Shown here: positions 18,719-55,542 of the stretch, in pieces
Layout: every line of letters begins with the position of its first letter
Position numbering within the stretch: the first letter of the stretch is position 1
Origin: Peronospora farinosa
Taxonomy: Eukaryota; Oomycota; Peronosporomycetes; Peronosporales; Peronosporaceae
NCBI GenBank assembly: GCA_947646735.1
Contig: CANTFK010000189.1
Coordinates: 1-64,000 of the forward strand
Reading direction: 5' to 3'
DNA length: 64,000 bases
The notes under the pieces: model-generated
Database searches by the model: none
Told to the model about the DNA's origin: nothing
What the model saw: only the letters and a program-made list of their open reading frames with translations
Position numbers and translations under genes: made by a program

Positions 18719-20140
18719 ATGCGCATGCAAATGACGCCGTTATCCGTACTAAGCAGTGTTGAGACCGTTGTATACGCACCTAAATCCGCCTTCCCTCAAA
18801 CATTTCGTCGATTGAATGAAGAGGATGCGTCGGCAGCACATCATCCCCATCCTCCTGTCTCGTCGGCTCCACGCTTTCAATCCTGGACAAATACGGTCAC
18901 AGACGTCAAGCCTAGGACAGTATGTCCACCTCGGACGCAGCAGGTGGAGCCTCCGTCCATCGTTTCATCCAGGAGCTCCAAGCAGCCCAAGCGTGAGCTC
19001 TATGTGTGTCCAGAAGTCCATTGTGGGAAGCAATTCCCACGCTCTTTTGCACTGCGACGCCATATGCGCATTCATACGGGCACGAAGCCATATGTTTGTG
19101 ACTATCAAGGCTGTTCACAACGATTTAATACATCGGGCAACTTAAGCCGTCACAAGCGCATTCACAGTGGCGAACGGCCGTATCCATGCTGCTATGAAAT
19201 GTGTGGCAAGCGTTTTAATACTAGTACCAAGCTAAAACGTCACATGCGTATCCACTTTCCAGACGGGCAGAATCTCTTTCGATGTACAGAAGAAGCCTGT
19301 GCATGGGCTTGTGATAACTACAAAGATTATGTGCAACACCAGAAATTGCATTCTAGTGTGGCTGACGATTTTACGAATATCTCGGACGAGAATATGAATG
19401 GCAATACTTTGGACAGAAAGAGCTCGAAGAACAGTGTCATTCCGCCTAACGCAGAGCTACGACGTGGTGAATTTTCACAGCAACTGCAGCATTCAATTGT
19501 GACAGAAGATTTTTACCAAGATGAGCGTAATCGGATGTTTGGAGGGGGCCCTGGTCCATTAATAATGATGCAAAAGGAGATTCCGCACGAGCGGCAAGAA
19601 AATGACTTTCGTCGGGAGCTGATACCGGCAACCAAAACGTTCTCGGATAACCGAACATCGTCTCAAGCTACGCCACGACTTCCGTTTCCAACACGTGCCT
19701 TTCCATCGGAGCCTACGGGTATGCCGAGCAGCGGTCTGTTAGGCTCATCACTTCACCCACTGACCCACTTGCCTTCACACCGCTACTATGACGCTGCAAC
19801 GGCGCCTAGTTCGGTTGAAATGTCTACATCGAGCAGCCCTATGTATGCTTCAGCGGGTTCATTTGTGTCTGCCTCCGTCTCATTATCGTCATGTATTCGT
19901 GGTATCGATAATCACGTGTTCGTGAGCTCATACCAGCCCACATCAACCACGACGACTTTCTTGGCCAAATCGGAGCAGCAACACACCCAGCCATTTCGAC
20001 AAGAAGACATTGGTCGTCAGTATGCGAGCTCATCGCCGCACGATCTACGGCAACAAGCAGGTTTTGGAGGCAATCCTGTGCCACCAGAGCTGACTGGTGA
20101 GGAGCTTAGTGCTGTATTGGAGTTGATGAAGGACTCCTGA
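18719..20140 (+). CDS. C2H2 zinc-finger transcription factor, 473 aa
   Basis: Intact single-exon gene. Residues about 95-185 hold three tandem C2H2 fingers: YVCPEVHCGKQF..HMRIH, YVCDYQGCSQRF..HKRIH and YPCCYEMCGKRF..HMRIH. These use TFIIIA/Zic-like C-x4-C spacing and TGTKPY / SGERPY linkers, followed by a fourth, degenerate finger (FRCTEEACAWACDNYKDY..HQKLH). The N terminus and the long C-terminal half are Ser/Pro/Gln-rich and low in structure, as in activation or interaction domains. Nuclear DNA-binding role is expected; target unknown. Three candidate ATGs lie within the first five codons. A tandem-array element begins 20 bp past the stop, so the 3' UTR may run into it. Confidence 0.9.
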   Translation: MRMQMTPLSVLSSVETVVYAPKSAFPQTFRRLNEEDASAAHHPHPPVSSAPRFQSWTNTVTDVKPRTVCPPRTQQVEPPSIVSSRSSKQPKRELYVCPEVHCGKQFPRSFALRRHMRIHTGTKPYVCDYQGCSQRFNTSGNLSRHKRIHSGERPYPCCYEMCGKRFNTSTKLKRHMRIHFPDGQNLFRCTEEACAWACDNYKDYVQHQKLHSSVADDFTNISDENMNGNTLDRKSSKNSVIPPNAELRRGEFSQQLQHSIVTEDFYQDERNRMFGGGPGPLIMMQKEIPHERQENDFRRELIPATKTFSDNRTSSQATPRLPFPTRAFPSEPTGMPSSGLLGSSLHPLTHLPSHRYYDAATAPSSVEMSTSSSPMYASAGSFVSASVSLSSCIRGIDNHVFVSSYQPTSTTTTFLAKSEQQHTQPFRQEDIGRQYASSSPHDLRQQAGFGGNPVPPELTGEELSAVLELMKDS

Positions 20141-22740: not shown

Positions 22741-23161
22741 TCGTCCAATAGCAAATTCTGCATATTATAATTACTATTATAGTAATTAATCTAGTGTAGA
22801 GTACTTAGAGTAAGACTATTCATAAAATCTTAATGCATAAATAAAATCAGTTCTTATTTTGAGTTTAAGATCGCAAGTCGTTCTGACTTGTTCTCTTGTG
22901 CACTTCGTGTGTTGGTTCTTTGAACCTTAAGCTTCTAGCTTGTTCTTGCACTCGGTGCGTTGGTTCTCTGAACCTTCAGCTTATTGCTTGACTGACTAAA
23001 AGTCTCTTTCCTAGTTCCTTAGAACAGGGTGACTTTAAGTCGTTTAATTAGTTCCTTAAAACTAAGTGGCTTTTAGCCTTAACTCTATTTAGTTCTCTAG
23101 AACTAAGAGGCTTTCAGCCTAAAGTCTTTTTCTGGCTAAAGATCTGTGTAGCTTCGCTACA
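22741..23161 (+). repeat. Family A 5' LTR, last 421 bp (identical to the 3' LTR)
   Basis: Corresponds to 29535-29955 with no difference that I can see over 421 bp, ending GCTTCGCTACA. It begins TCGTCC, repeating the TCGT that ends the left fragment at 21542. Confidence 0.85.
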
Positions 23162-23172: not shown

Positions 23173-23221
23173 TTGTAGTCAATCCTACACCTGAGCCTTT
23201 AAAGACTGACCCTCTGTGAGG

Positions 23222-24223
23222 ATGGAGAATCAAAATCACCTCTCTGAGGCGCAACGACTCGCGCTAGATAAATTATCTGCGTTCGTTGGGCCCGACCAAA
23301 TCGAGGCCCTTTTGGCCCAAGGCCCGGAGGTTCTTAATGCTCGCCTTGAGGCCTTTATGCGTTATGAGGCAACGCTACTCGGGCAGGTCCATGACCAGGC
23401 AGCGTCAGCTGCGCCTACACAGTACATCCCGGTACCTGTGCCCGATGCAGAGCCAAAGGCTCGCCCACTCGTTTTAAACGTAAAGACCTTTGAGGGGAAG
23501 GAGGGAGAAAATCTTCTCCTCTGGATCCGAGAAGTTGAAATGGCAATGGATGCCGCCATGCTTGTATCAGATAAGCAACGAGTTGGCTTGGCCATTTCGA
23601 AGCTCGGTGGAAGAGCTAGAGAGTGGGCTCTAACGAGCGATGTCTCTGTAAATGCTGCATTCCCCACATGGGAAATGCTTAAAAAGCAATTAACTTGTGT
23701 GTTTGCACCGCCTAATCAGGCTTATCGTGTGCGCTCACGCTTCTTAGCTACCCGACAGGGTAAGAAAGAATTGTCGGACTATGTCCAAGAGTTGAGAACT
23801 CTCATTGCTGCTATGCAGCAGGACCCTCTGGCAGAGGAAGTCCGAGTAACCATTTTTATGGAAGGACTTCGTACTGGGGTCGCCAGGACGGAAGTTTTCC
23901 GTGTCCAGCCTTCGACTTTCGAAGAGGCAGTAAGCATAGCGTTTAACGCTGAATTTAATTTCAAATCTGCTCGCTATGGTCTGCCCTGGTATCAATCAAA
24001 TGCCTCTAACAGGGCGGAACCCATGGACCTCAGCCATGCTGAAGAAGCTGAGCTTCAAGCTGCTGAGCAGCAAGGTAACATCCGTAGATGTTACATGTGC
24101 GGAAGCACTAGGCATCTCCGCCCTAGCTGTCCGTTGCGAAAGCAACGTTCAAATCGGCAGAGCCGAAACCCTGCTCCTAGCCAAAAGGCGAGCACGGCAG
24201 GGGAAAACGTCAACTCCCAGTAG
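23222..24223 (+). CDS. Gag of gypsy element A, 333 aa
   Basis: First ATG at 23222 ([12 protein letters not shown]), 60 bp after the LTR. Contains a retrotransposon Gag domain ([59 protein letters not shown]) and a CCHC zinc knuckle [14 protein letters not shown] (C-x2-C-x4-H-x4-C), followed by a basic tail. It would form the virus-like particle and package RNA. Intact, ending at TAG inside the recoding hairpin; protease is in the -1 frame. Confidence 0.9.
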
Positions 24224-24244
24224 GCGCGGGGCGCCCTACTGGGA
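24202..24244 (+). promoter_or_regulatory. Candidate -1 frameshift signal at gag end (element A)
   Basis: Imperfect slippery heptamer G GAA AAC in phase (24202-24208), 6-nt spacer, then a perfect 10-bp stem TCCCAGTAGG / CCTACTGGGA (24215-24224, 24235-24244). The gag TAG is in the 5' arm. The -1 frame is open from just upstream of the site into protease. Confidence 0.6.
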
Positions 24245-25500
24245 AAGAACTAAGTTCTGTTGGATCTTTAGGAGGTAAAGGTAAACAGGGCTTAGCCCCA
24301 GGTGGTTCTGTGGATGCTCCCATAGAACAAGATTACAAGCCAGGCTTGTTGGTTGTGTCGGCAACCGTTAAGGGTTTTGAGAAACCATGGTCAATTTTAA
24401 TTGACTCAGGGGCGTCAGGTAATTATGTCCGACGTCGTTCCCTTGAAGGGAGTCAGCTGTATGCTGAGGCGCTAGAAGCGCAAGAGGGTGACAGTATAAC
24501 CGTGCGTCTCGCGACCGGTGTACGTGTCACCGTTCCTAAAGTTCCGTTGAACTTAGGTGTGAAGTTCTTAGACTTCAATAGCGTTGAACGCTGTCTTGTC
24601 CTAGATTTGGACTCGAGATATGATCTCATTCTCGGTATGGCCTGGCTGGAACGCCATGAGCCATGGATCGATTGGAGATCCAAAACTTTAGGCGCAACGC
24701 GCAATGTTCCTAGCGAAGCTTTGGAGAGTCATGAACCCACCTTCGCTAGGAAACAGAAGTGCTATTGGCGCGAGCCATTAACTGAGTCAGTTAGTGTGCT
24801 GGACATTGGAGTGTCTGAGTTGATAAACTCCAATGTCAACAATAATAGTGTCGAGCAGAGCTCAGTGACACCTAGTGGAACGGCACGTACTCCGTTGAGT
24901 GATACTCATAGTAATATTGAGACACTGGATGTCGGTAATGACATCGGCTCTCGTATAGAGCAAGTTAAGGTCGATGACCTTATTAGTGATATTAGCTGTA
25001 AATGCGATTCACTGGATGTCGGTAATGACATCGGCTCTCGTATAGAGCAAGTTAAGGTCGATGACCTTGTTAGTGAAGTCACTGGTACTAGTGACCCACT
25101 GGATGTCAATACTGACATCGGCTCTCGCATAGGGCAGGTTAAGGTCAAGGAATCTGTTGACCTTGGGGATGATGGTATCCCAAGGACTTTAAATATTACG
25201 GTCTCGTTAATGAGACAGCAGCGTCGCCAGATGACGGCTGCGAGACGTAAAGCGTGTGCTTTATCGCGTAGTAATATCAGTGACCAGTTGTACACCCTAG
25301 TCAATGGAGTGACAGGGGATGTAGATGGTGAGGTTGACCTTGAGGCCCTCCCATCATTAAATGCTCTCTTAGAAGTAGACGAAATGTCTGTGGATGAGTT
25401 TCATGAAGCCTTGAAGGCTGGCGCTCAATTCTATATGGTGGTCATTCGACCTAACCTCGAGCTGAACTCATCCTCGGATATCGATGAAAGCACCCCTTGA
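24224..25500 (+). CDS. Element A protease region with linker repeats (-1 frame to gag)
   Basis: Aspartic protease with [12 protein letters not shown] (catalytic DSG) and the flap/end motif [19 protein letters not shown]. It has no ATG near its start and is open in the -1 frame from within the gag end, consistent with synthesis by frameshifting. The C-terminal half carries three 87-bp (29-aa) repeats beginning at 24925, 25012 and 25099 ([18 protein letters not shown]). TGA at 25498 breaks the link to reverse transcriptase in this copy. Confidence 0.8.
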
Positions 25501-29310: not shown

Positions 29311-29955
29311 TGTAACGGGGTTACACGACGGTTGTAGCGTCTTTCCGAGAGTTTACGGTTGAACTCCTCTTTGTATTGCATATAATGAATAATGATACTT
29401 CTCTTTAGAGAGGTATTGGTACATGTATGAGCGTTAAGATACGGTATTCGGTAATACCGTATCCTATCGACTAGGATTCGATAAATCGATAACACTGTAC
29501 TAAGTACATCATACACAGATGTTTAGACAATACGTCGTCCAATAGCAAATTCTGCATATTATAATTACTATTATAGTAATTAATCTAGTGTAGAGTACTT
29601 AGAGTAAGACTATTCATAAAATCTTAATGCATAAATAAAATCAGTTCTTATTTTGAGTTTAAGATCGCAAGTCGTTCTGACTTGTTCTCTTGTGCACTTC
29701 GTGTGTTGGTTCTTTGAACCTTAAGCTTCTAGCTTGTTCTTGCACTCGGTGCGTTGGTTCTCTGAACCTTCAGCTTATTGCTTGACTGACTAAAAGTCTC
29801 TTTCCTAGTTCCTTAGAACAGGGTGACTTTAAGTCGTTTAATTAGTTCCTTAAAACTAAGTGGCTTTTAGCCTTAACTCTATTTAGTTCTCTAGAACTAA
29901 GAGGCTTTCAGCCTAAAGTCTTTTTCTGGCTAAAGATCTGTGTAGCTTCGCTACA
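29311..29955 (+). repeat. 3' LTR of element A, 645 bp
   Basis: Bounded by TGTAAC and GCTACA. Contains an AT-rich palindromic stretch (TAATTACTATTATAGTAATT). Five bases outside the two LTRs (TAGTT, ATAAT) do not match, so no target duplication is visible. Confidence 0.9.
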
Positions 29956-30840: not shown

Positions 30841-33719
30841 TGTTAGAAATTTTGAACGCATGACAAAAAGACTTTACTTACGGACGCGTGCCAGACGCGT
30901 TTCGGCCCGCCGCTGCGGGCCTCCTCAGTGGCTTAACGATCGCAAAGTGATCCTTCTCAGTGCAGCGGCCTCTGCCGCTGTCACACAGTTTACCTATGCA
31001 TCGATCATTCTAGAAGTACCTTAAAATAGACTATTCTAGAACTTTTTAATAGACTTCACCGGCGTACATCTAGTACCCAGCTAGATACGAAGTTCCACTT
31101 TCCAACACGTAGTATTATTGTCTCCATAGCGAATTCCTTCTGTTATATATATAGCATATTTATCTGACATCTGATTTTATTTGATCTAGAATTTATGAAT
31201 CTGAAACTCGGATCAGACCTGATTCATTGTTTTGAATCAATCCAGATCGCCTCATTACCTTTCTTGGCCTCGATCCGTCGAAAGCACATCGGATGCAGCA
31301 AGATCTAAATGACAAGTGTACTCACAAGTCGCACATGTACATACATTCGTATGTACGAGCTGAAGCTAAATGGACTTTGCTGCCGCCATCTATCGAATGC
31401 AACCTTTAAGGTCGACGGAGTATCAAAATTACTGACTTATGCTTGCAGCTGCAGCTGCAGCTGCAGCTTTCGCCTTTTATCTTCTTGATCGCAGCCTTTC
31501 AACATTATCTGCATCCTTTTCACTGTCAAACGAGCCAAGCAATTCGTTTGACAAGTAAGTTTGGTCGTCAGCATCCTTTGCAATGCGCAATACGCCTTAG
31601 TGCAAGTGATGGAGTAAGACGTAAACTACTTGTTTTGGTATAATTGAGCCAGATTGAGAATGGTAGGCGAGGCGAGTCGTCTTTGCCGTCACCAAAGACA
31701 ATCACTATTTCTAACGAGGAATAGATGAAGTCTAAACAATCTGTACAGGTTTAAGTGCGCGAAAGCGTGGCTCGCTTTTGTGGTGCGTTACGTCAATTCT
31801 GCAACATATGTCTTCTACAAAACGTGTTGCAACGACAGAACGTTCGTACAATACAACTGCGATGCTTTAACTTTTTTTCGTAATCCAACGAAGGGGACGC
31901 GTGATCCCAATGATCTACCAATACATGGATACCGCTCATAACCTGGGCGAGAGGTCCCTTATCATGGGACCAAGGTTGAAGGCTGTGGCACCACGGAAGG
32001 CTGTGCAGCGTGTGAAACTGACTGGGAGCTATAGGCACAAAGTCCCGAGGTGTGGGCACGTCGACAAAGCAGCAAATTCAGCATTAACAATTTTTTGATC
32101 CTCTCCGTTCTGCCTTCGAGTGGTGGGCCCGTTCGCCGAGTGCGAACTCCAGTCCCACGAAGCGAACTCCCCCAAAACGTTATTCTGTCCGTTCCGATTC
32201 CGGCCGGAGTCAGGCTGACCCGTCTGGAAAGCCGATTTGGTACCTTCTCACTTTCCAAGCCCCAGCATGTTCTCAGGTTGGTCAAACTGTCCTACATCCC
32301 CTTTTGGGGTGTCTTCGGTAAAGCCCATCGGGTCGAGCAGCAGATGAGCTAGTGCAGAGGAGAACGACGTAGTCATGGCAGAACAGACATATCTAAATAA
32401 ATCATGAGGATCTAACAGACAGTCTGAACTATTTTAATTTGTAGCACGGCATCATATACATCTCTGAACAATATCTTTCCCATGTTTACGCATCGCCGGG
32501 TGGCCCAGAAATGAGCGTCAACTATGGTAAGGCTTCCAGATGACAGCATTACACAGCGACGATTCGTTTCCGTTACCGGTGCGGCCTTTCGTGCGCATTG
32601 CGCAGACGAACAACGCACCGAAAGGGCTCGATCTGATACAACCCTTATCGTTAGCTTCACGAAGTCAGCAGGTTGTATTCGGTCAAAATATTAGCGCGGC
32701 ATGATGCCGCAACCATTCCGCTTGTGACCGAGCCTACGTGTCGAGCAGACATCCGTCACGTTTACTCGATCTCATGTAAGCGACAATAACACTCCCCTTG
32801 CTCGAACATGATTTAATAACTTTCGTCTGAGCTCAGCCGTGCAGCATCGCAAACAATTTTCTCCGTAGTGATATATTCGATGACTAGTATTAAGAGGTCG
32901 TTAAGTATGTACAATCTAATCGAGCGACATTTGAAATATTACGGCCTATTTCGCGGCTTCATTTCTCTCGAGGCGTACATTTCATTATATTGACATCCGC
33001 TCACCGCAAAGTGCACTTTGTTGCGGTCGCTAGCGGATAAACGATCGTGATCATCCATTCTAATGCTTCGGGGGTTTTGAGCTCAACGCTATAGCAAGTA
33101 ATGACTGATTGCTCTCAACATCACTACTGTTGTCATCCTTCATGAGCACTTTTGACCAATGCCTCATCCTGGATAACCTTGTCGGTGAGGAACTGCACCC
33201 GTCACGTTTTGTCTAGCATATTTAGTTCTAAAGCTGCTGAACATATCCTGCGAGCAACGATTCAAATATTTAGGATATGCCTGAGCATCAAATAGGCAGC
33301 TGGTGCTCTCCAGCATTACGAGTCATGATGAGCTGCGCAACCAGCATTGGGGTCAACACATACAGAAACTTTTATGCATTATAGCATTTGCCAGACTATA
33401 ATAGATGGTAATAAAAACCTCCACTACTACGGAGAGGGTTGTCCTTCGTGCAGTCATTCGGCTCGTGCATTACTTACTGTCAAGTTGAAAGTTTTAACTC
33501 GTTTGGCCCAGCTGGCCGATCTTTTTTACCTACACTTGTGGCTGTAAACATGAACCTGTAGCTGCTTTCCAGATGCTTTTTGGCTACAGTTGTAATCAGA
33601 CAAGGCAGTCTCCGTCAGCTCCCTCTTGTCTGGCCGACCGGCGCGGTATCACTTTCACTTTTGCCGCACAACGCACATTTACTCCCATTCACTACACAGT
33701 CAGTCCGTCACAGCAAACC
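30841..33719. other. Repeat-derived intergenic region
   Basis: Includes a GC-rich hairpin (GGCCCGC / GCGGGCC near 30905), a short CAG-CTG microsatellite (31446-31470) and half of a dispersed repeat pair (31890-32400). No gene recognised. Confidence 0.4.
31890..32400 (+). repeat. Dispersed repeat, copy 1
   Basis: Shares several blocks in order with 34880-35370: CCACGAAGCGAAC (here) versus TCACGAAGCGAAC, the GGGGTGT-CGGTAAAGCCCA region, and GAGGAGAACGACGTAGTC versus GAGGAGAACGATGTAGTC. Diverged; element type unknown. Confidence 0.5.
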
Positions 33720-34361
33720 ATGTCATGCGTAGCAACTACAATGCAAGCACATCCTCAGACTCAAGAATCCGCCGACGTAACTCCCGTAAAAGAGGTGGCG
33801 CCATTCCTGCGCAGTCTTCGCCGCATGCTAGACACTGAGAGCCCGTATATCGTGCGGTGGACACCCGACGGCAAAGCCTTCGAAATCTACGATATAATCG
33901 CCATTAGTGACTACGTGCTTCCAAAGTACTTCAAGCACTGCAAAAACGCCAGCTTTCAGCGCCAGCTCAACTACTTTAACTTCCGCAAATGGACCAAGTC
34001 ACGCGCGGTAGTGTGCACTTTCTCCAACCAGTTTTTTCAGCGAGACCAGCCGGCTTTAATGTGGCGCATTAGACGCAAGCACTCACTATCGCTAACAAAG
34101 GATTTAACTTTTCGAAGCAACGTCCGAAAGCATGAAGAACAAGCTCCGTTGGCTTTACCCACACCTGGTCTGCAACTCTTCAAGCAATTCGACCCTGTGG
34201 TAACAGTGCAAACCACGGTGGGGCTGGAAAGAATTGATGGTGATACATCATTGGCCTGGATTGATGCTCTGTATTCGGAGCTGGACTTGGGCGGCCAGCT
34301 CGATGACAATGATCGAGTCGGTCCTGACTACTCTCTCTCGACAGCGCTACTCTCACTTTAG
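33720..34361 (+). CDS. Heat shock factor (HSF)-type transcription factor, 213 aa
   Basis: Intact small HSF. The DNA-binding domain covers residues about 27-122: APFLRSLRRMLDTE, IVRWTPDGKAFEIYD, VLPKYFKHCKNASFQRQLNY and FNFRKW, the HSF recognition-helix signature. It ends in IRRKHS. The short acidic C terminus (LDLGGQLDDNDRVG) could be an activation segment. There is no long heptad trimerisation region, which is common in the expanded small HSF-like set of oomycetes. The ATG at 33720 is preferred because the domain begins shortly after it and the context is ACCATG. An in-frame ATG at 33573 would add 49 residues of poor composition. Nuclear, probably stress or developmental regulation. Confidence 0.85.
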   Translation: MSCVATTMQAHPQTQESADVTPVKEVAPFLRSLRRMLDTESPYIVRWTPDGKAFEIYDIIAISDYVLPKYFKHCKNASFQRQLNYFNFRKWTKSRAVVCTFSNQFFQRDQPALMWRIRRKHSLSLTKDLTFRSNVRKHEEQAPLALPTPGLQLFKQFDPVVTVQTTVGLERIDGDTSLAWIDALYSELDLGGQLDDNDRVGPDYSLSTALLSL

Positions 34362-38163: not shown

Positions 38164-39251
38164 CTTGGTAGCACTAGTAGTCCTTCCCACGACCCGTCTC
38201 TCTGAGCGTGCGTGTGGTTGACATGGTCCTTACTATGACTTCCCTCACCTCCCCCAACATCATAGGGAGTTGGCAGAGCATATGGATCAGGGACTTGGTG
38301 AACAAGCCCTGGTCAGCTTGAGCAACATGTTGCTCAGTTGGAGCAATTTGAGAAGTTTTTGCTCGGACAGCGTAGAAATGCGTCCGAGGTAAACAGCCAA
38401 GCCACCGCTGAGTCCATCAATAAGACTCAGAATGAGCTTAGGCTTGAGCAGGCACGTAATGAGGTGCTCAACAGAACTGTTAAGACGCTCTCGGCCCGGC
38501 CTACTCAGCCGAGGCCCATTCGGATGGAACCTCCGAAGTTCGATGGAACTACCCCTCACACGATTGTTCACTGGCTATTAGCAGTTGAGCGCAGCTCATC
38601 GAAGACGACACCAGAATAGTGTCGTATGCCATGTCCAACTTGCGTGGCAAAGCGTCAGAGTGGGCATACTCTTCGCTGATGACAAAAGCTGATGAATTTC
38701 CATCATGGGCGATTTTTCAAAAAAAAGATTCGCGCCATGTATCAGCCGCCTGTTGCTTATGGCGCGCTTCTTTGGAGCACGACAGGCGAAACGCTCTCTG
38801 CAAGAATTTGTGCAGGAGATGCGTTCGCTGTCGGCGTCTATTGATGGGAAACCGATACCAGAACGTATCAAGGTGGCCACGTTCATGAATGGACTTAGGC
38901 ACGGCCCATCGCGTCAGGCCCTTTTTAGAAAGGTGCCAGCGACGATGGAAGAGGCAATTGACATTGCCTTAGTTGAGGAGCAATCCTACAACAGCGCCTC
39001 GGCGACAGTCTATTACAGGCCGTCGTCCGAGAAGTCTGATGCCGCTCCTATGGAGTTAGGCAATGCAGATGTGATCTGCTACAAGTGCGGCAAGACAGGC
39101 CATATGATGGATCGCTGCTATACCAAACTTTCTGCTGGTGCTAAGACAGCCAGAGAAAAGTCTCCAACCCAAAGGGTGGTGCGAAAAACCAGCGTGCACG
39201 ACGCACGGGTTCAGCACCTGCCCAAGATGGGTCGGGAAATGCGGAGCGCAG
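38164..39251 (+). pseudogene. Gag of element B, several frameshifts
   Basis: Fragments in order: HVAQLEQF-like N terminus; MEPPKFDGTTPHTIVHWLLA; MSYAMSNLRGKASEWAYSSL; RSLQEFVQEMRSLSASIDGK; FMNGLRHGPSRQALFRKVP; zinc knuckle CYKCGKTGHMMDRC (complete CCHC). Breaks occur near 38600, 38740 and 39165. One base is missing between the slippery site and the hairpin, so in this copy part of gag reads straight into protease. Confidence 0.8.
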
Positions 39252-39272
39252 TAGGGGCGGGATGCCCTACTG
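39234..39272 (+). promoter_or_regulatory. Candidate -1 frameshift signal at gag end (element B)
   Basis: GGGAAAT (39234-39240) followed after about 8 nt by the stem CAGTAGGG / CCCTACTG (39249-39256, 39265-39272), with TAG 39252-39254 in the 5' arm. The phase in this copy is disturbed by gag indels. Confidence 0.55.
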
Positions 39273-42200
39273 TCGCGGACTCTGAAGCTACCCCTAAGTT
39301 CAGAGTGATCGAACAAATGGGTAGCATAGTCCCTGAGGTTCCGAAAGGTCGGACCTCAATACTTTTGGTCTATAGCGCTCAAGTACGAGGTTATGACCAA
39401 GTGATGACTCTTCTCGTGGATTCGGGTGCATCACAAAACTTTGTGAAAGTCGCGGCTCTGAAAAAGAAGTCCGGCAAGTTTTGAGTCGCTTTGCCAGGAT
39501 GGCAAGCGAGAAGAGGCGATCGTTCGTTTATCAAACGGCGCACTCGTTAAATCGGAGGTAGTTCAAGTTGAACTCGCTTTCAGTTTCAGTGACTTCTCTT
39601 GTAAAGAGAAGTTCACAGTGCTAGGTATGGAGAGTCCGTATGACCTCATCCTAGGCATGCCTTGGTTGGCTAAACACCAACCATGGATTGACTGGCGTAC
39701 ACGAACAGTCGCTAGCTCTACGCAAGACACCGGAAAGGATGTGCTCTTGCGAGAGGTTTATGTGGCTGATGCTGTGTCCAACACAGTCGAGGGTGCGATG
39801 ACGGTATGTCAATCGACACCAGGAACTACCCAAATCGAAAGGAGTGGTGTAGTTGGAAGTGTCTTGACAGCAAGTCAGATGAAACATATTCCTATTCAGC
39901 TGGAAGAGACTAATGTAGTGAATGGGGCGATGACAGGTAGTCATGCGTCCAATAGTCCTGCACAGAGCCGAGAGCCTGTGGCAGTTGATAGTGGGCTGAC
40001 AGGAAGTCAAGCGCCACAAGAACCGGCACAGAGCCAAGAGCCTGGTGCAGTTGGAAGGAGTGCGTTAGCTGAGATAGCAACGACACCTTCTTCCAGGTCA
40101 AAGGTCGTGGTGACTCGAAGAACGAGCACCAGACGTATTAATACAATCAAGGGCACGTCGAAACGAGTGACCCTTGGATCAGTCTCGGTCCAAGAGGACA
40201 GACCTACGAACGAGTTGTTCGAGGTCGTCGAAGACAAAATGCCGGAGGCATCCTCAGTTGAGGTGCTCCAACTTGTCTTGGCATCTGCCGAGGAGATAGT
40301 AAATCTCTCGGAGATGACGTGGGATCTGTTCCTGTCCGAATTAAAGGAAGGAAAGATCCACGAGATAGTCGCAACAGTTCCGGAAGAGAACGTGGTGGAC
40401 TGTTGCTCTTCATCCACAATGAATGAGAGCGTCTTAAACACCGACAAGGAGAAACGTTTCGCTGCTCAAGGCTAGGAAGACTGAAGGACAGCCCGTTCTA
40501 TGATGTTCTGTAGAAACACCGTGACGTGTTTCCAGCAGAAGTGCCGAGCCGCCTACCGAGGCATCAGGCACGAGATTGACCTGGAGCCTGGCACCAAGTA
40601 TTGTGTGGCCAGGCAATGGCCGTTGCCAAAGGAACAAGTCAATTATATCGATGAGTTCTTCGACAAGCGAGTCAAGGCGGGACATGTACGTGAGAGTAAG
40701 TCGCCTCACTACAGCCCGACCTTCTGTGTGCGTAAAGCAACGGGTGGATGGCGCGTGGTTCATGCTTATAACAAGCTGAACACGGCCACCATTCCAGCTC
40801 AAAGGCCGATCCCGCGGAAAGATGTTTTGTTGAATTCCATGGGAAAGTCAACTTTCTTTTCCGCGTTGGATCTGAAGGATGGCTACTATCAAGTTCTCAT
40901 GAGAGATATTGATGTAGCCAAAACGGCACTAAGCACCCCAAGCGGTATGCTGTGGGAGTGGCTTGTGATGCCACAAGGGTTGAAAAATGCTCCAGCAACA
41001 TTCAACCGAGTAGTGGCTCACGTGATGCGTCAGCACCGTGCCTACGCGCCCCATTACTTTGATGATGTATTCGTGCATAGTAGGGCGGAGGACGGTCTGA
41101 GCGCGATAGAGTCGCACAAGCGTCATTTAGACGCTGTTTTGCAGACTCTGGGTGACGCCCAATTATACGTGAACTTGCAAAAGTGCGTAATAAGGGTCCC
41201 CGAGATACCTGTACTGGGCTGCATTGTTGGTGCACACGGCAAACGAGCAGACGCAGAAAAGGTAAAGGCTGTAAAGGAATGGCCAGTCCCACGTAATGTG
41301 AAGGATCTGCGCCAATTCCTTGGACTCGCTAAAGATTTGCATAAGTACAGCAAGAATTATGCGGAGCAGACCAAGCCATTGTCTGACCTTTAGAAAAAAG
41401 GATACAGAATGTACTTGGTCAAAGGAACAAGAAGATGCGTTCACTTCAGTAAAGCAATCTCTTGTCGAAGCACCGGTCTTGGCATTTCCAGACGCGGATA
41501 AGCCCTTTAGCGTCGTCTGCGATGCAAGCAATTTCGCAATCGGCAGCGCGCTCATGCAAAAGGATGACAACGGCGTTTAACGTGTCATTTCGTATCAGTC
41601 TAGGCTTTTATAAGCGGCAGAGCTGAATGACCCTGTGCATGATAAGGAGCTACTTCAATTGAGTATGCTCTTGTAAAGTTTTGCGTTCACCTCTTGGGCA
41701 CCGAACCTTTTGTGGTTTATAAAGATCACGCATCACAGCGGACCTCTATAAATTCACCGCACCTCTCGCCGAGAATGGCAAGATGGCTGACATTCTTCTC
41801 TGAATTTAATTTCAAAGTTGAATATAAGCCGGGTAAGTCGAATGTCTTGGCTGACGCATTATCGCGCAGACCAGACTTCGAGGCAAGACACCAGGATAGT
41901 GTGTCTCGTGCGAAAGCACAAGTTGAGTCGTCAACATTGGCAGCCATGAAGGCCTATCATCTGACGAGCTCAATGGCCTCCGATATCAAGGAGTGTTACA
42001 GTCAGGACGACATTGTCGTCTGCTGTTGGATCATTTTGGTGGACGAAAGGTTACCCTTCCGTCGCACCTCAAAGCGAAACTAAATCGCTTTAGTTACAGT
42101 GATGGCCTGTTATGGCATCAACTGTCACCCTGTGATCCCTTGAGAATCTATGTCCCTCATGACACAGATCTCGAGCTGATGATACTTCACGAGTGCCATG

Positions 42201-46764: not shown

Positions 46765-47113
46765 CCAATAATAAATTACCCCGCTATTCGGGCACAGCGT
46801 GGCAATTTATTATTGGTATATATTTGGGGCTAAAAACCCAATATGCTATTCGGGCACAGCGTGGCAATATATTATTGGTATATATTTGGGGCTAAAAACC
46901 TAATATGGGCCGATGATAAATAACCTGGAAAAAAATGTGTGGTTTCCGAAAGGCGGGAACATTACCGTATTTATTACGACTTAAAATCTTCGTAAATAGT
47001 ACGAATTCATAAAAATAAAAATAGAAATACATTTACTTAGTACATAATGCTTGAGCCAGAGTCTTCCTCAAGCGCGCGTGAAAGCCAAAAACAATCGTTT
47101 CAGCTCCGTTACA
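46765..47113 (+). repeat. Family C LTR fragment with a duplicated and folded-back 5' part
   Basis: 47113 is the LTR 3' end (CTCCGTTACA). The last ~270 bp match the LTR at 54700-55038 nearly perfectly. At the left, a ~60-bp block (CTATTCGGGCACAGCGTGGC onward) is repeated twice. An inverted copy (CCAATAATAAATT at 46767) opposes AATTTATTATTGG at 46804. Confidence 0.7.
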
Positions 47114-47194
47114 GTATTTGTTTTAAGGATCGGCCATGATAGAAACGGTTCGCGTTTTGCCATATGCGCAGAGTAAGCCCACTCTGATGCTTTG

Positions 47195-47533: not shown

Positions 47534-47559
47534 CCTGGTAGCACTTTGTAGTCCTTCCT

Positions 47560-48610
47560 ATGCCCGAGTTTGGGATGAGCGAATCGTCGTACTTTGACGC
47601 TCCAGATTTATTTCTGGAGCACGCGACCTTTCCCCATTTTACTGGTGTTGAGTGGGATGCCCTTAATCGCCTCGCGGCGATATTGGGTGAGGCATTCGTC
47701 GCGTCGCTGATGATATCAGCGACCCCTGACGCGCAACGTCTCGCCATACACGAGTTTATGGCACGCGAGCTCGCCGAATCCAACCGGCGAGGCTTAACTC
47801 CCTCGCGAACTTCACGTAATGAGGCCGTGAAGATGGAAACCTCCTCCTACTCTGGAGAAGGTAAGGACTGGTTGTCGCTGAATCGGTGGTTTCGAGAAGT
47901 TGATATCGCTATCGCCTCGAGACTTCTTGAAACTCCCCAGGCGAAGGTCAACTTTCTTCTTTCCCGCCTCACCGGGAAGGCCAAGGAGTGGGCCCTTGGT
48001 AAGCTCGTTGTGGACGAGCACGCATTTCCCACCTTGGATACCATCCAGGACGACCTTCGTCTTGCTTTCGAGCCACCGCTAGAAGAGAAACTGGTGCGAT
48101 CGAGATTCCTGTCGATGCGACAGGGTAAAATGGCGATGCGCGACTATGTACAGATGGATAGGCATTCTGGCGTCGTGTATTATCACGCACCCCATGGACA
48201 TGTGCACGCAGGTGAATGTCTTTGTGGATGGTATGCGTGAGGGGAAGACCCGCTTATTGCTGGAGCGTGCCGAGCCTGCCACATTGGAGGAGGCATTTTC
48301 CATCGCACTCCGTGAAGACTTTAGGGTCACAAAGGCATATGCCAAACCCTCGGTCGTCACCGTCCCCCGGCCATCTGGTCCAAAACCTATGGAGATCGAC
48401 GTTATCGAGTCGTCGGGTGACCGACGACGTGTCATTTCCTATAAGGGTGACGCTCGCACCGGGCGTCAAATGGTTTTCTTTCGTTGTCGCAAGCCAGGAC
48501 ATCGCGCGGCAGAGTGCCGTGCGCCAGCGCCAATATCGGTGCAAGTAGTGGATGCCCATCATGAGGGTGCTGTACCGGCCGCACGTCCAAAAAACGGTCG
48601 AGACCAGTAG
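47560..48610 (+). pseudogene. Gag of element C, one frameshift
   Basis: First frame from ATG 47560 ([13 protein letters not shown]) through [20 protein letters not shown] and [17 protein letters not shown] one-base shift near 48155 moves the rest ([35 protein letters not shown]) to the next frame, ending at TAG 48608. The zinc knuckle reads FFRCRKPGHRAAEC, with the first Cys replaced by Phe. Confidence 0.85.
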
Positions 48611-48630
48611 GTGCAGGGCGCTCTACTGGT
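48589..48630 (+). promoter_or_regulatory. Candidate -1 frameshift signal at gag end (element C)
   Basis: Canonical slippery heptamer A AAA AAC in gag phase (48589-48595), 7-nt spacer, perfect 8-bp stem ACCAGTAG / CTACTGGT (48603-48610, 48623-48630). The TAG stop forms the end of the 5' arm. The -1 frame is open from the slip site into protease. Confidence 0.75.
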
Positions 48631-49753
48631 TGGAACGGAGGTCCGGGCCCCCCGGTGGCAGCCCAACCTTCCAGTCCTCCTGCGCTACGCGCACGGTTAA
48701 ATGCCACCACTACGAGTGGTGATTCACGTCTGATTATTGTCACTTTACATGTCGCCGGCGTCCGGCGACCTCTGCGAGCACTCCTAAACTCAGGAGCAAC
48801 AAATAATTTCTTTCGTGAATCTTGTTTATCGATGCTGCCTCCCAGCATTCAGGTCCGTAAAAGACCTGGCCAAGTCGTCGTCAAGTTGGCTGACGAGAAA
48901 CCACACCGCGTATCGCGGCGCGAAGTGTCGTTGCCGTACACGTTTGACGGCTTTCGCAGTATTGATGATTTTTTGGTGATCGCGATTAATTATGCATTCG
49001 ATTGCATACTGGGCATGCCATGGTTGGCACGTTATAAGCTCCAGATCGACTGGTTAGCCAGATCAGTGAGACGTCGACGCAAGTTCGATGTCAGTGAAGT
49101 GTTTACCCATCTCTTGGTATCTCCAAGTGACTGGCCGAACGTCACAGTCGTGAATCGTGATTCCACGACGCTGGCGGTGCACAGAGCGAGCGATGGCCCT
49201 CTCTGCACTGCTTGTGCTGTTCTTCGAGACATAAGCGACAGTGACTCCTCGCTACAGAGCGAAGAGGACGACGAGGACGACGCGGTCGAACAGGGGTTCC
49301 CGCGCGTCTTTAACGCCGTTGAACAGGGTTTCTCGCACGAGAATGCAGTGGTTGAATCGGGGTTTCCATCTGCCCCTATTGTGGTCGAGCAGGGGCTCCC
49401 ACAAGGGCATTGTGACGACGAGCAAGAGCTCGCCAGCGAGTGTGACGTGGACGGACAGGAGTCCCTACGCGAGAGCATGATGGTTGAACCGGGGTTTCCC
49501 ATCATCACCCACTGTGGTCGAACCGAGGTTCCCACATGGGCATATTGTGGTTGAGCAGGGGCTCCCACACGAGTACAACGTGGACGGACAGGAGTCCCCA
49601 CGCGCGAGCATGATGGTCGAACCGGGATTCCCATCATCACCCACTGTAGTCGAGCCGGGGTTCCCATCATCACCCACTGTAGTCGAACCGGGGTTCCCAC
49701 ATGGGCATACTGTGGTTGAGCAGGGGCTCCCACACGGGTTTACGGCGGCCTAG
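48611..49753 (+). pseudogene. Element C protease (catalytic Asp lost) and 33-bp linker repeats
   Basis: Protease [20 protein letters not shown]: the catalytic DSG is NSG, so it should be inactive. [19 protein letters not shown] marks the domain end. From 49285 a run of about fifteen 11-residue units ([22 protein letters not shown] types) follows. A frameshift within the array near 49500 moves to a second frame that ends at 49753. Confidence 0.8.
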
Positions 49754-50100
49754 CAGGAGCTCCCGCATCAAGTGTCGACGGTCGAGTTTGGGGTTCTCCC
49801 GTCTAGTGTTTCCGGCATCGTGGATGAAGACATCCAGTGCCTAGAGTGGGGTGGTGTATTATCACCTGACTGCGGTTGGCCAGCTTCGAGTAGTAGTGAC
49901 TCGAAGCACGATGGGGACAGCAGCACCGAGAATTTAGCGTTGGAATGTGTACGCGCTATCGTGTACGTGGAAGGGAGTCCACAAAGGCGCCAATATATTG
50001 AGGTAGAGAGTCCTCCTCGTGATGCGTCTTCCATTACCAGCCTTCCGGGGCTTTCCTGGAAGCATTTCCTACGTGACCTTAAGGGAGGCACTGTGGACAA

Positions 50101-50976
50101 GTGTGTCTACTCACCAACGAGGTGGTTACCGTGACAAACGAGGAGCATATGGCGCGTCCTCGAAGCGCTGAGCCGAAGTCAGCGCGTGAAGAAAGGTTTG
50201 CATCACAGTCATGGGAGGCTCTGCGAGAGTCTGGTAACCCTGTCTACGACATTGCTCGTGAGTATGCAGACGTGTTCCTGGACAAGATCCCGGCTGAACT
50301 TCCTTCGGACCGTGGTGTTCGGCACGAGATTGATCTCGTGCCAGGGTCGAAGTATTGTGTGACACGGCAGTGGCCGTTGCCTCGAGATCAAGTCGAAGCT
50401 ATTGACGCATTCTTCGAAGGCCGCCGCAAAGCGGGTCATGTGCGTGAAAGTATCTCACCACATTCGAGTCCAACCTTCTGCGTGAAGAAGGCTACGGGAG
50501 GCTGGCGGATAGTGCATGCGTTCAATAAGTTGAATGATGCCATTATTCCTGCGCAAACGCCTATTCCCAGGAAGGAAATGGTGCTGAATTCCATGTCAGG
50601 AAGTGACATCTTCAGTGCCATCGACTTGACCGATGGCTTTTACCAGATTCTAATGCGACCGAGTGATATCCCACTCACCGCGGTGAGCACCCCGAGTGGC
50701 ATGTTATGGGAGTGGATAGTTATGCCACAAGGGTTGAAGAACGCTCCGGCCACTTTCAATCGCATGGTGTCTCAAGTGTTGAGACCCCTTCGGAACTTTG
50801 CTCCAAGTTATTTTGACGACATTCTCGTCCACAGTCGCGCCGAGGGCAACCTCAACAATGTCCACGTTCACCTTCAACACCTGAAGCAAGTGTTTCAAGT
50901 TATGCAGGACAACAAGGTGTACGCGAATCTCAAGAAGTGTGTCTTTTGTGCACCGGAGATTCCGGTGTTAGATTGA
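50101..50976 (+). pseudogene. Element C reverse transcriptase
   Basis: RGVRHEIDLVPGSKYCVTRQ region (vRHEI), AIDLTDGFYQILM, PQGLKNAPATFNRMV, catalytic YFDDILVHSRAE, ending in an in-frame TGA after PEIPVLD. A second nonsense codon (TAG near 51018) follows in the same frame before RNase H. Otherwise complete. Confidence 0.85.
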
Positions 50977-51078
50977 TATGTGAGTAAATCGGGGGTTCGA
51001 GCTGATCCAGAGAAGGTGTAGTCCATCTGTTTTTGGCCTACACCCAAGAACCCTACGGAGCTGCGCCAGTGGCTCGGC

Positions 51079-52740
51079 TTGGCTAACGATTTGCACAAGT
51101 ATACGAAGGATGATGCTGGTTCTATCCAGCCTTTGTCGTCACTATTGAAGAAAGACGCCACGTGGTTGTGGAGTCCCGAGCACCAAGCAGCCTTCGAAGC
51201 AGTGAAGAAGTGCCTGGCGTCATCGCCAATGCTGGTCCTACCAGACGACTCCAAGCCGTTCCACGTGGTATGCGACGACAGTGATTTTGCATTCGGTTGT
51301 GCCCTCATGCAATTTAATGATGAGGGCCGCGAACGAGTCGTGAGCTATCAGTCGCGACAGATGAAGTCAGCTGAGAAGAACTATCCGGTTCACGACAAGG
51401 AGTTATTAGCGATGCGCTATGCACTCATCAAGTTTCGCGTGCATCTCCTTGGTGAACGTACATTTGCTTTGTACACCGATCATGCATCGCTGCGCACAGC
51501 GTTGAAGAGGCCACACCTGTCCCAACGGATGTCACGATGGCTCTCATTCTTCTCTGAGTACAACTTCGTCGTGCATTACAAGCCAGGCAAGACTAATATT
51601 CTCGCTGACGCCTTGTCGCGACGTCCCGGCTACGATCCTCGGACTGCTCTGAGTCGTCAGGCTACTGATGACGAGGACGATGATGACCGATGTGCAATGT
51701 GTGTATCACTGAACTTAATTCGGGTTACACCCGAGCCGTGTTTATTTGATGAGATCGTCGCAGCGTACAAGGGCGATTCAGATTACGCAGACATTATCGA
51801 GTATCTGCGTGCTCCCAGAGATGCTGCACTGGGAGCATTATCCCGTACCAAGCGCGACCACATTCATCGATACAGTTTAGATGGCGATTTGCTTCTGTAT
51901 AGCATCGACCAATTCGATTCTCCTCGCACGGTGATTGCCAATGACATGGATTTGCGTGCAAGAATCATTCACGAGTATCACGATGCTCCTGCTAGCGGTC
52001 ATTTAGGCCGCGAAAAGACTTTCTCGGCTGTGTCTCGAGACTTCATCTGGCCCCACATGTATAAGTGGGTACGCAATTGGATCCGAACGTGCGAAATATG
52101 CCAGCGTGTGAAGCCATCTCCATCGTCACAGGCTACCTTGCGATCGTTGCCAATTGCAGCAGAGGCCTGGAGATCAGTTTCGATGGACTTTATCTTCGGG
52201 CTTGCGCCCGATAGCCAAGCTCGAACGGGCATCTTGGTCTTTGTTGACAGATTCAGCAAGATGACACATCTCGTGCCTGTTCATGCTAAGGTAACCGCAG
52301 AGACCGCGGTGCATTTCATCGACGCGGTGTTCCGTCATCATGGCCTTCCAGAAAACATTGTTTCGGACCGTGACCCGCGATTTACGTCCGCATTTTGGAC
52401 GTCACTTTTCGAGCTCCTCGGGACAAAACTGCTGATGTCGATTGCGGCCCATCCGAAAACGGATGGGCAAACCGAGCGCGTGAACCGGGTCCTCGAAGAT
52501 GTTCTTCGAAGTTACGCTACGTCATTCACAAGTTGGAGTGCGTTTTTACCCCTCGCTGAGTTCGCACTCAATAACGCCGTACACGCGTCAACAGGGTTAA
52601 CGCCATTTTTTGTGAATTCGGCTCGTCCCCCTCGTGTTCCTACTCTCCTGGCCTTGGGGCGACCCACAACACCTAGTGGCTCCACTTTGGGGGGGATAAA
52701 GGTGATAAACAAGGATCGAGTGCAGCTCACGGTATTTTGA
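51079..52740 (+). CDS. Element C RNase H and integrase, 553 aa open
   Basis: Same frame as the RT. Connection domain LRQWLGLANDLHKYTKDDAG precedes and overlaps the start. RNase H shows VVCDDSDFAFGCALMQ, YTDHASLRTAL and LADALSRRPGYD. Integrase shows the zinc-binding HEYHDAPASGHLGREKT..CEICQRVK, then the DDE core SMDFIFGLAP, IVSDRDPRFTSAFW and GQTERVNRVLED, all intact. It joins cDNA ends to host DNA. The frame is lost near 52735. Confidence 0.85.
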   Translation: MANDLHKYTKDDAGSIQPLSSLLKKDATWLWSPEHQAAFEAVKKCLASSPMLVLPDDSKPFHVVCDDSDFAFGCALMQFNDEGRERVVSYQSRQMKSAEKNYPVHDKELLAMRYALIKFRVHLLGERTFALYTDHASLRTALKRPHLSQRMSRWLSFFSEYNFVVHYKPGKTNILADALSRRPGYDPRTALSRQATDDEDDDDRCAMCVSLNLIRVTPEPCLFDEIVAAYKGDSDYADIIEYLRAPRDAALGALSRTKRDHIHRYSLDGDLLLYSIDQFDSPRTVIANDMDLRARIIHEYHDAPASGHLGREKTFSAVSRDFIWPHMYKWVRNWIRTCEICQRVKPSPSSQATLRSLPIAAEAWRSVSMDFIFGLAPDSQARTGILVFVDRFSKMTHLVPVHAKVTAETAVHFIDAVFRHHGLPENIVSDRDPRFTSAFWTSLFELLGTKLLMSIAAHPKTDGQTERVNRVLEDVLRSYATSFTSWSAFLPLAEFALNNAVHASTGLTPFFVNSARPPRVPTLLALGRPTTPSGSTLGGIKVINKDRVQLTVF

Positions 52741-54082
52741 GCGCCAATGTAGTAACCCGATTCAAGGCAAAGACTGCTGCTTTGACTCCACAAGACCTGG
52801 CGTCCCCATTAGCTCGATGGACTGCGCAGACATTGATTGACACGTCTTCGAGTAAGCTTTCACCTACTGCCAACTACGCACCGATTGAGTCGGCGCGGCC
52901 AATTGATGACATGGCTGTGTCGGAATTTGAATTCCAACGTCAAGTCATCACCCGCTTTGTACGCGACGCACTACAATCTGCGGTAGATCAACAGAAGGAG
53001 AACGCTGAAAAACATGGCAAACATGGGTTGGCAGAAAGAAAATGAGCAAGTTTGAGAAAGGTGACCGTGTATTATTATCTACGGAAGGTTTAAGGGATTC
53101 AGCGGTCACTAACCGGAGCGCGAGTAAACGCGCGCCACGCTTTATCGGTCCATTCAAGGTTCTGAAGGCAATTGGCGACGCTTATACACTCGACGTTCCC
53201 TCTTCACTGCGACTCCACCCGACATTCTATGTCGGGCGGCTGAAGGAATATCGTCCGGATACGCTTCACGGTTTGGCTCCGATGCCGGCTTCAGGGGCTC
53301 GTAAGTCGAACGGCTTTCCCGTCGTGCTCGACGCGCCGAAGACATGGGGCGGGGCCTCGATCCTGTCTGAACATGACCAAGCACCTGGCGCCTTAGAACC
53401 CTTATCCGTTCGAGCAGTTCACGGTTTGACTGTCGGTTCTCACTCGCAGTCTTCTCCGCCCGGGCATCACGTTCACTGGCAGCCTCCGCCTCCAGCTGAG
53501 CATCGGCAGCTATGTTCACGGCCTGATCAACATCGTCCTGAGCAACCAGGACGCCAGCTCTACCACCGCGAGGGCCCTCCTCCGCTTGTTGATGCGGAGG
53601 TACAGGTGCGCTGGATTGTAGACCGCATTGTGGGTCACGAGGACCCTCCACAACCAGCACTGCAGTCGGCTCATGAGAAGCGCGCGGTTACATCCGTGTG
53701 CAGGTACCGAGTACGTTGGCTTGGATTCCCTCCCGAGCAGGATACATGGGAACCACGTTCCTCACTCCTTCGTGACGTTCCAGATGTGGTTCTGTCGTAT
53801 GAAGCCACGAAGTCGGGCTATTCCAATGCGGGCGAGCACGTGAACGCTCTCGTGACAAACGAGAGCGGTAAGGAGATCCACGTCGTCGAGAACGATAACG
53901 ATGTCGTGAGCGAGAACGATGCCGTGAACGAGAACGTCGTGGTGAATACATATCACGATTGCGAGGCGAGAATCGCGCAGCAGGACGGGCAGGCGAACGT
54001 GTCGCTGCCCTGCGCTGATCATTCCGCGGAGATTGACTCTGCTGTCGCGAGTGGTGCTGCCAGCGAGGCGCACCACGAATAA
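52737..54082 (+). pseudogene. Element C integrase tail and chromodomain
   Basis: Two frames joined near 53042: FVRDALQSAVDQQKENAEKH, then GDRVLLSTEGLRDSAVTNRS, RFIGPFKVLKAIGDAYTLDV and LHPTFYVGRLKEYRPD. The chromodomain lies at about 53600-53790 (WIVDRIVGHED..YRVRWLGFPPEQDTWEP), expected to steer integration to chromatin marks. The C-terminal tail is Asn/Val/Glu-rich and is overlapped by the antisense ORF. Confidence 0.8.
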
Positions 54083-54699: not shown

Positions 54700-55038
54700 T
54701 GTAATGGGCTACATTACGCATATAGTTAACAAAAATAAACAATAATATATGTAGACAGGTGCTGGGTCCGAATAGCGGGCACAGCGTGGCAATTTATTAT
54801 TGGTATATATTTGGGGCTAAAAACCTAATATGGGCCGATGATAAATAACCTGGAAAAAAATGTGTGGTTTCCGAAAGGCGGGAACATTACCGTATTTATT
54901 ACGACTTAAAATCTTCGTAAATAGTACGAATTCATAAAAATAAAAATAGAAATACATTTACTTAGTACATAATGCTTGAGCCAGAGTCTTCCTCAAGCGC
55001 GCGTGAAAGCCAAAAACAATCGTTTCAGCTCCGTTACA
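54700..55038 (+). repeat. 3' LTR of element C, 339 bp
   Basis: Nearly identical to the fragment at 46850-47113 but clearly different from its own 5' LTR. The flank after it (GTATTTGTTTTAAGG...) is also the flank after 47113. Confidence 0.85.
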
Positions 55039-55542
55039 GTATTTGTTTTAAGGATCGGCCATGATAGAAACGGTTCGCGTTTTACCATATGCGCAGAGCT
55101 GACGCTTTGCCACGCAAACTTTATACGACAGCATTCTAGTGTCGTCTTCGATGAGCTGCGCCATACCGCATTGCTCCACTGATAGTAGCCAGTTGCAAAC
55201 GTATGTAGGGCAGTTCCATCGAACTTCGGAGGGTCCATCCGCATGGGCCCCAGCTGGTTAGACCGGGCAGAGATCATTTGAACAGATCTGTTGAGCGCCT
55301 CATTCCGAGCCTGCTCAACAGAGCTCATCCTGAGTCTTATTAATGAACTCAGCCGTATCTTGGATGTTTGCCTCGGACGCATGTCTGCACTGTCCGAGCA
55401 CGTACGCCTCAAATTGCTAAAACTGAGCAACATGTTGCCCAGGAGGACAATTCAAGAGGTTGGCCAGGGATTGTTTACCAAGTCCCTGCACTCACACGCA
55501 CGCTCAGAGAGATGGTTCGTGAGAAGGAATGCTAGTACCAAG
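55039..55542 (-). pseudogene. Gag remnant of a minus-strand B-type gypsy element
   Basis: Minus-strand pieces: an N-terminal part (LLSFSNLRRTCSDSADM-type, frame-shifted), MRMDPPKFDGTALHTFATGY, and a degraded MSNLRGKASEWAYS block reaching 55039, where element C is inserted. Continuous with the LTR to its right. Confidence 0.7.

Follow-up and report, generated by a model that had tools for sequence, protein, structure and literature searches.

Programmed −1 frameshifting and conserved structures at the end of gag are both familiar from LTR retroelements. A 2003 survey of animal LTR elements placed pol in the −1 frame in 28 of 51, many of them with classical slippery heptamers, according to a review that also describes a conserved 27-nt motif at the sirevirus gag end, able to fold into a stem of 11 bp whose nucleotides covary (cited passages of PMC5009743). 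A conserved inverted repeat is also reported at the sirevirus gag/pol boundary (PMC2829016, cited passages). In the cited passages of PMC7618472, the spacer between heptamer and structure is usually 5–9 nt, stem-loops are standard stimulators, and one short viral stem-loop has 7 bp and a 10-nt loop. For oomycete retrotransposons, no description of frameshifting appeared among the open-licence papers that our searches listed. The original prediction, which knew of no oomycete description, holds to that extent; prior knowledge of −1 frameshifting in LTR elements is larger than it allowed (PMC5009743, cited passages).

Gag ends of five retrotransposon families in Peronospora farinosa share a compact cassette that very probably acts as a hairpin-stimulated, programmed −1 ribosomal frameshift signal, linking Gag to protease and polymerase in a Ty3/gypsy group of the Peronosporaceae. 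Families A, B and C have copies in the window, by which we mean the whole 64,000-nt stretch of DNA analysed here. In all five families, A to E, a heptamer (AAAAAAC, GGGAAAT or GGAAAAY) is followed by 12 nt and then by a TAG that lies within the 5′ arm of a 24-nt hairpin. Heptamer, spacer and TAG keep one common phase in the five families, and the stem begins 5–8 nt past the heptamer, within the 5–9 nt usual for a downstream RNA structure (folding z −0.9 to −4.0). A canonical X XXY YYZ heptamer in phase is present in C (30 of 30 copies), B (26 of 30), D and E; A departs from the canon at one position.

Direct reading of the forward strand of the window located each part of the cassette. In element C, the slippery heptamer A AAA AAC (48589–48595) stands in gag phase, and in another copy of this family (L006) it is the sole canonical X XXY YYZ site in phase across 355 gag codons. 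The gag stop TAG (48608–48610) follows 12 nt past the heptamer, inside the 5′ arm of a hairpin that spans 48602–48631 with its outer pairs (24-mer core 48605–48628). Element A carries a heptamer-like site, G GAA AAC, in gag phase (24202–24208), a TAG at 24221–24223 and a hairpin that, with three outer pairs, occupies 24215–24244 (24-mer 24218–24241; folding z −4.0). The B-type copy has G GGA AAT in gag phase (12628–12634), a TAG at 12647–12649 and a hairpin at 12643–12668 (24-mer 12644–12667). The gap from heptamer to TAG is 12 nt in these three copies, and that from heptamer to stem is 6–8 nt. In the B copy, GGGAAAT lies at 39234–39240, the hairpin at 39248–39273 and the TAG at 39252–39254; because only 11 nt separate heptamer and TAG, this heptamer is out of gag phase.

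These readings confirm the predicted canonical, in-phase heptamers of C and the B-type copy. The claim that the TAG sits in the arm of a perfect hairpin at four gag ends stands for the position of the TAG and fails on perfection in C, where one core pair (48611/48622) is G-U; for the B copy at 39234, the GGGAAAT is there as predicted and its phase is not. Perfect stems are frequent in the window as a whole. On the forward strand (at least 8 bp, loop 3–12) they begin at 99 positions against a mean of 8.55 in 20 dinucleotide shuffles, and those with a TAG in the 5′ arm number 8 against a mean of 0.6, in counts that score a long stem repeatedly and come from a repeat-rich stretch. Rfam gave no match to the window at gathering thresholds.

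The cassettes are carried by LTR retrotransposons with Ty3/gypsy domains. Element C has Pfam matches in gypsy order: gag (below cut-off), RVP_2, RVT_1, RNase H, H2C2, rve, SH3_Tf2-1 and Chromo. Its gag (47542–48610) is split over two frames (47542–48240 and 48083–48610) and in this broken state scores 22.8 bits for Retrotrans_gag and 20.8 bits for Ty3_capsid, each just under cut-off. The protease ORF lies in the −1 frame (48565–49554; RVP_2, 28.1 bits), and ORFs with Pfam matches to RT, RNase H, integrase and chromodomain occupy 50083–54082 (50083–50976, 51022–52740 and 53009–54082). A 300-nt direct repeat, part of the LTR, stands on either side at 46851–47150 and 54776–55075, its members 100% identical. 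Element A has a 337-codon gag ORF (23210–24223; Retrotrans_gag, Ty3_capsid), a protease ORF in the −1 frame (24181–25500; RVP_2) and its own 300-nt LTR repeat at 22741–23040 and 29535–29834, again 100% identical; all of these features are on the forward strand. The order of protease, RT, RNase H and integrase typical of Ty3/gypsy elements (Metaviridae) was found for C only, in a domain test that covered gag and protease in A and gag and RT in B, and the identical flanking repeats give C and A the expected long terminal repeats. We rejected a Sirevirus-type Ty1/copia order, with integrase before RT, as integrase follows RT in C.

The C copy in the window is itself broken: besides the split gag and the G-U core pair, its protease motif reads NSGA. 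Its pol contains a 133-nt unit repeated in tandem about four times at 49359–49789, with the copies 60–77% alike. Elsewhere in the window, a pair of overlapping ORFs (13243–16403) soon after the B-type gag end has domains for endonuclease and reverse transcriptase and is probably a LINE-type element. A reverse-strand ORF at 97–1179 gives a weak Pfam match to PexRD54_WY, an oomycete WY-domain effector model (23.1 bits, cut-off 27), and host-gene-like ORFs at 18677–20140 and 33498–34361 show C2H2 zinc fingers and an HSF-type DNA-binding domain.

The cassette recurs throughout the genome. We searched the 46.85-Mb, 274-contig P. farinosa assembly that contains the window. AAAAAAC followed by 9 nt and CAGTAGGNGNNG occurs at 373 places (seven-A copies included) and GRAAAY with the same continuation at 444, against none for either reversed pattern; CAGTAGGNGYRGRRYGCCCTACTG occurs at 740 places versus none reversed. 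The looser CAGTAGN{4,20}CTACTG, a palindromic pattern of which every place is seen on both strands, gave 1041 places versus 416 reversed. Variants of these patterns led to families D and E, so that a cassette predicted for three gypsy families proved to be more widely shared. Families were grouped by spacer, hairpin and flanks, without a tree, and copies inside one family are not independent. In D (L097–L099) the heptamer is AAAAAAC and no stop interrupts the −1 frame in the 83 codons examined; in E it is AAAAAAC in L095 and altered in L093, L094 and L096. A 26-nt relative of the hairpin (L100, and C7 near 259587, 268268 and 274821) keeps CAGTAG/CTACTG around a different self-complementary inner part. 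L100, which lies on the other strand, resembles a B-like hairpin in decay; its two extra bases would alter the frame, and it was excluded from the family table. The 24-mer had no match in the viral contig collection. Its one match in the genome contig collection, in a Bacteroidetes MAG, has no slippery heptamer at the right distance and was taken as chance because about seven matches are expected there under random bases.

Well-kept copies of A and C have the −1 arrangement. We scored the top 40 matches for each of A, B and C and examined 30, which are those that best match the window copies and no random sample. C copies have AAAAAAC and TAG in 30 of 30 and intact core pairs in 29; gag is open for at least 330 codons in 19, the −1 frame for at least 500 codons in 15, and both in 13. 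In A the heptamer is GGAAAAC in 21 copies and GGAAAAT in 9, which makes the imperfection predicted for this element the state of its family; the core is intact in all 30, and by the same thresholds gag is open in 12, the −1 frame in 10 and both in 5. B copies have GGGAAAT in 26 of 30 and an intact core in 24, and none has a long gag, a long −1 frame or both: gag is open for at most 287 codons and the −1 frame for at most 334, and in the B-type copy at 12.6 kb of the window (L031) the −1 frame closes after 22 codons. Judged by its frames, family B is decayed. By these counts, A and C copies that are well kept have the −1 arrangement, which for B we only infer.

The other two frames close quickly past the TAG. 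Across the 90 copies the longest 0-frame opening is 29 codons in C, 24 in B and 9 in A, and the longest in the +1 frame is 37, 63 and 18 codons, respectively. A protease always in the −1 frame and open, as the original prediction had it, is therefore what A and C have and B does not. The intact copies likewise bear out the −1 layout (13 of 30 in C, 5 of 30 in A), alongside 14 copies with seven A in which gag and pol are joined in one frame. Among the findings that count against the frameshift reading, no B copy among the 30 has both frames long and open, and the A heptamer is non-canonical; the joined seven-A copies, joined gag relatives, unexceptional folding of B, C and D, and pair measures that fail to beat shuffles, all described here, weigh on the same side.

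The pattern of conservation marks the cassette as a signal kept at the RNA level. When a single A copy (L072) is aligned with a single C copy (L006), pol residues are identical at 118 of 448 positions (26%), and fourfold third bases at conserved residues are equal in 16 of 64. The corresponding figures for gag are 89 of 320 residues and 17 of 51 third bases, and C and D agree at 8 of 26 fourfold third bases; from this agreement, synonymous sites between families are saturated. Over the ten pairs of families A–E, mean pairwise identity of the 24-mer is 0.88 (0.83–0.96), as against 0.24–0.30 in ungapped flanking blocks. In the pol frame the 24-mer reads GTA GGN G(C/T)(G/A) G(G/A)(G/A) (C/T)GC CCT ACT. 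The third bases of (C/T)GC, CCT and ACT, located in the stem, are identical in all five families, and the bulged third base of GGN takes all four letters among ten rows. Genome-wide, the third position of the Pro codon is T at 763 places and another base at 5. As T makes up roughly 0.3 of the third bases of Pro and Thr codons in A and C, chance would be unlikely to make the stem third bases agree across several saturated families, on rough reasoning rather than a formal test.

Compensating changes in the outer stem argue for selection on RNA structure. We scored a 13-pair stem against 500 shuffles in ten distinct rows, chosen by hand from families and sub-types, a comparison biased in the stem's favour since the structure was derived from the same sequences. 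The stem formed in 93.8% of cells versus 87.5 shuffled, and its covariation score was 0.229 versus 0.123, with no shuffle as high in either case (0 of 500); nine cells were changed on both sides, a number reached by 8 of 500 shuffles. Neither the number of pairs with two-sided change nor that of further pair types beat the shuffles in these ten rows (347 and 181 of 500 as high), and a control slide of the stem by +1 gave 10 two-sided cells versus 9 in the true register. Compensation is confined to the three outer pairs. Eight of the 13 pairs are invariant, as is expected for the core: in each of its invariant pairs, the stop codon or a non-synonymous codon position dictates one base or both. 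The predicted selection on structure through compensation at the stem ends is upheld in the covariation score, for three outer pairs only and on three of five measures.

Folding energy is a secondary argument. Folding z-scores were −4.0 for A and for E (L107), −1.6 for C (L006), −1.4 for B and −0.9 for D. Out of 20,000 synonymous recodings, 123 folded at least as well for A, 901 for B, 273 for the window copy of C, 1615 for C copy L006, 4454 for D and 2868 for E (L095), and with GC-weighted codons still more did so. Folding energy is convincing by itself for A and E only; because it is strong for A but weak for C, D and E against synonymous recoding, we do not make it the main argument. We rejected a pseudoknot in which the hairpin loop would pair with the 60 nt that follow: no such pairing is common to the families, and 61 to 500 of 500 shuffles have pairings as long.

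Gag proteins of other oomycetes often end as the cassette would have them end. We took 120 listed of 270 relatives of an A gag and 120 listed of 231 relatives of a C gag. A terminal N-x-x-x-Q, expected by chance in about 0.001 per protein, is found in 49 of the 120 listed A-gag relatives and 39 of the 120 listed C-gag relatives (44 of 54 and 34 of 70 among the zinc-knuckle relatives listed). The residue preceding N is K in 39 of 39 C-like ends listed, and in the 49 A-like ends listed it is G in 30, E in 17, D in 1 and R in 1. K, G or E thus precede N in 86 of the 88 ends listed, matching the P-site codons AAA, GGA and GAA. Names among these relatives include Phytophthora fragariae, P. rubi, P. 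infestans, P. cactorum and P. idaei, as well as Peronospora matthiolae and Hyaloperonospora. The −1 peptide VG.[GE].P[TY] occurs in 12 of the 240 relatives searched, from Phytophthora and Peronospora, two of them from P. farinosa. Such proteins suggest that hairpins stand at gag ends in other species too.

Some relatives have gag and pol joined. Seven of the 120 listed C-gag relatives run from gag into the −1 peptide, KKR..GP[VI]G; five of these (P0012, P0262, P0268, P0273, P0304) enter the −1 frame exactly at the A run, and in two (P0271, P0326) the junction lies upstream of it. P0295, P0315 and P0332 resemble joined gag-pol relatives, other gene models bridge gag and pol elsewhere, and at least four relatives (P0152, P0196, P0250, P0325) continue in the 0 frame via an altered stop. 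At the DNA level, the P. farinosa genome holds 14 copies with seven A versus 218 with six under an equal spacer pattern. All 14 lie outside the window and carry C or D cassettes in which gag and pol share a frame, and Phytophthora gene models show similar joins. Either a polymerase that slipped on the slippery run or errors in a homopolymer could account for them.

Phase, spacing, frames, hairpin, conservation and outer-pair compensation, all legible in the sequence, together with the closing 0 and +1 frames and the gag ends of relatives, support the −1 frameshift cassette of the original prediction, and the alternatives must be weighed against them. Slippage in transcription or reverse transcription would add an A to the A6 run, so that the seven-A transcript encodes Gag-Pol in one frame and seven-A genomic copies are its traces. 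The 14 such copies fit this, as do the five listed relatives that change frame at the A run. However, neither A nor B contains a long homopolymer (GGGGAAAAC, GGGAAAT), the conserved hairpin and the fixed 12 nt are left unexplained, and the seven-A copies may stem from replication slippage or homopolymer assembly error. We consider this account quite unlikely; transcriptional slippage could be an added expression route in the A6 families, one that does not explain A and B. It is also unlikely that the hairpin is kept for another RNA task, such as packaging, dimerisation or protein binding, while the heptamer shifts with little help from it. A core invariant in both sequence and pairing (8 of 13 pairs never vary) would suit such a task, but the hairpin is fixed in position to the heptamer (stem at 5–8 nt, TAG at 12 nt), and its invariance needs no second function, given a stop-codon or non-synonymous base in each pair.

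Constraint on the protein alone fares worse. It would have the −1 peptide VGxGxPT kept for a protein role, for example as a protease cleavage site, with the stem as a by-product, and the 12 of 240 relatives that share the peptide across Phytophthora and Peronospora speak for it. Yet third bases that are randomised elsewhere between families are constant where the stem pairs them within this peptide, the unpaired one is free, the Pro third position is T almost without exception, and the outer pairs compensate across non-synonymous positions, all of which makes this explanation very improbable. We give almost no credence to a pol reached by readthrough of the TAG or by separate initiation past it. 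A TAG right before a structure does recall readthrough signals such as that of Moloney murine leukaemia virus (PMC3835772, cited passages), but the 0 frame beyond the TAG is shut within 29 codons in the 90 copies, which disfavours readthrough, and the first Met of the pol frame lies past the protease active-site motif in A and C, which makes separate initiation unlikely.

Programmed −1 frameshifting would work at this cassette as follows. A ribosome with the XXY and YYZ codons in its P and A sites would encounter the hairpin 5–8 nt ahead and pause, and in some cases both tRNAs would slip back one base into the protease frame. Ribosomes that do not shift would read four further codons, opening the stem, and terminate at the UAG within its 5′ arm. 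In family A, a slip on G GAA AAY would have the P-site tRNA re-pair with a G-U at the middle position. The pausing, the slip at the heptamer, the ratio of Gag to Gag-Pol and the role of the stop in the stem are elements that we infer. Economy of coding, with a four-codon tail past the shift site, may be sufficient reason for a stop in the stem. A more doubtful idea is that the stop is placed there as a device, in which the non-shifting ribosome unwinds the hairpin and remains there during termination. Termination would then be coupled to the pause that drives the next ribosome's shift, the Gag to Gag-Pol ratio would be set by ribosome density or release-factor activity, and the lineage would have kept a coupled cassette from before its families diverged.

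The cassette offers a compact, exactly delimited recoding signal with hundreds of copies and several sequence versions in an oomycete host. Because its heptamer, bulge and outer stem vary naturally, one can test directly which rules govern hairpin-driven shifting and what a stop within the stimulator does. It may also explain split or oddly joined gag/pol gene models in Phytophthora and Peronospora.

Both −1 frameshifting in LTR elements and conserved gag-pol hairpins are already known, and it is this form of cassette that may be new. With the stem-loop-stimulated −1 signals of RNA viruses and retroviruses it shares a heptamer, a 5–9-nt spacer and a simple stem-loop rather than a pseudoknot; a 0-frame stop within the stimulatory stem is absent from the cited passages (PMC7618472). 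Animal LTR retrotransposons are likewise LTR retroelements with a −1 pol and heptamers, but their hosts differ and the cited passages do not mention a shared hairpin that holds the stop (PMC5009743). Sireviruses resemble these families in having a conserved stem-forming motif at the gag end of an LTR retrotransposon, whereas they are plant Ty1/copia elements whose pol is +1 or overlapping, with no −1 heptamer in the cited passages (PMC5009743, PMC2829016). PEG10, a mammalian gene, shares the Ty3/gypsy origin and a frameshift from a gag-like to a pol-like frame, but it is a single domesticated gene with a pseudoknot as its stimulator (PMC5009743, cited passages).
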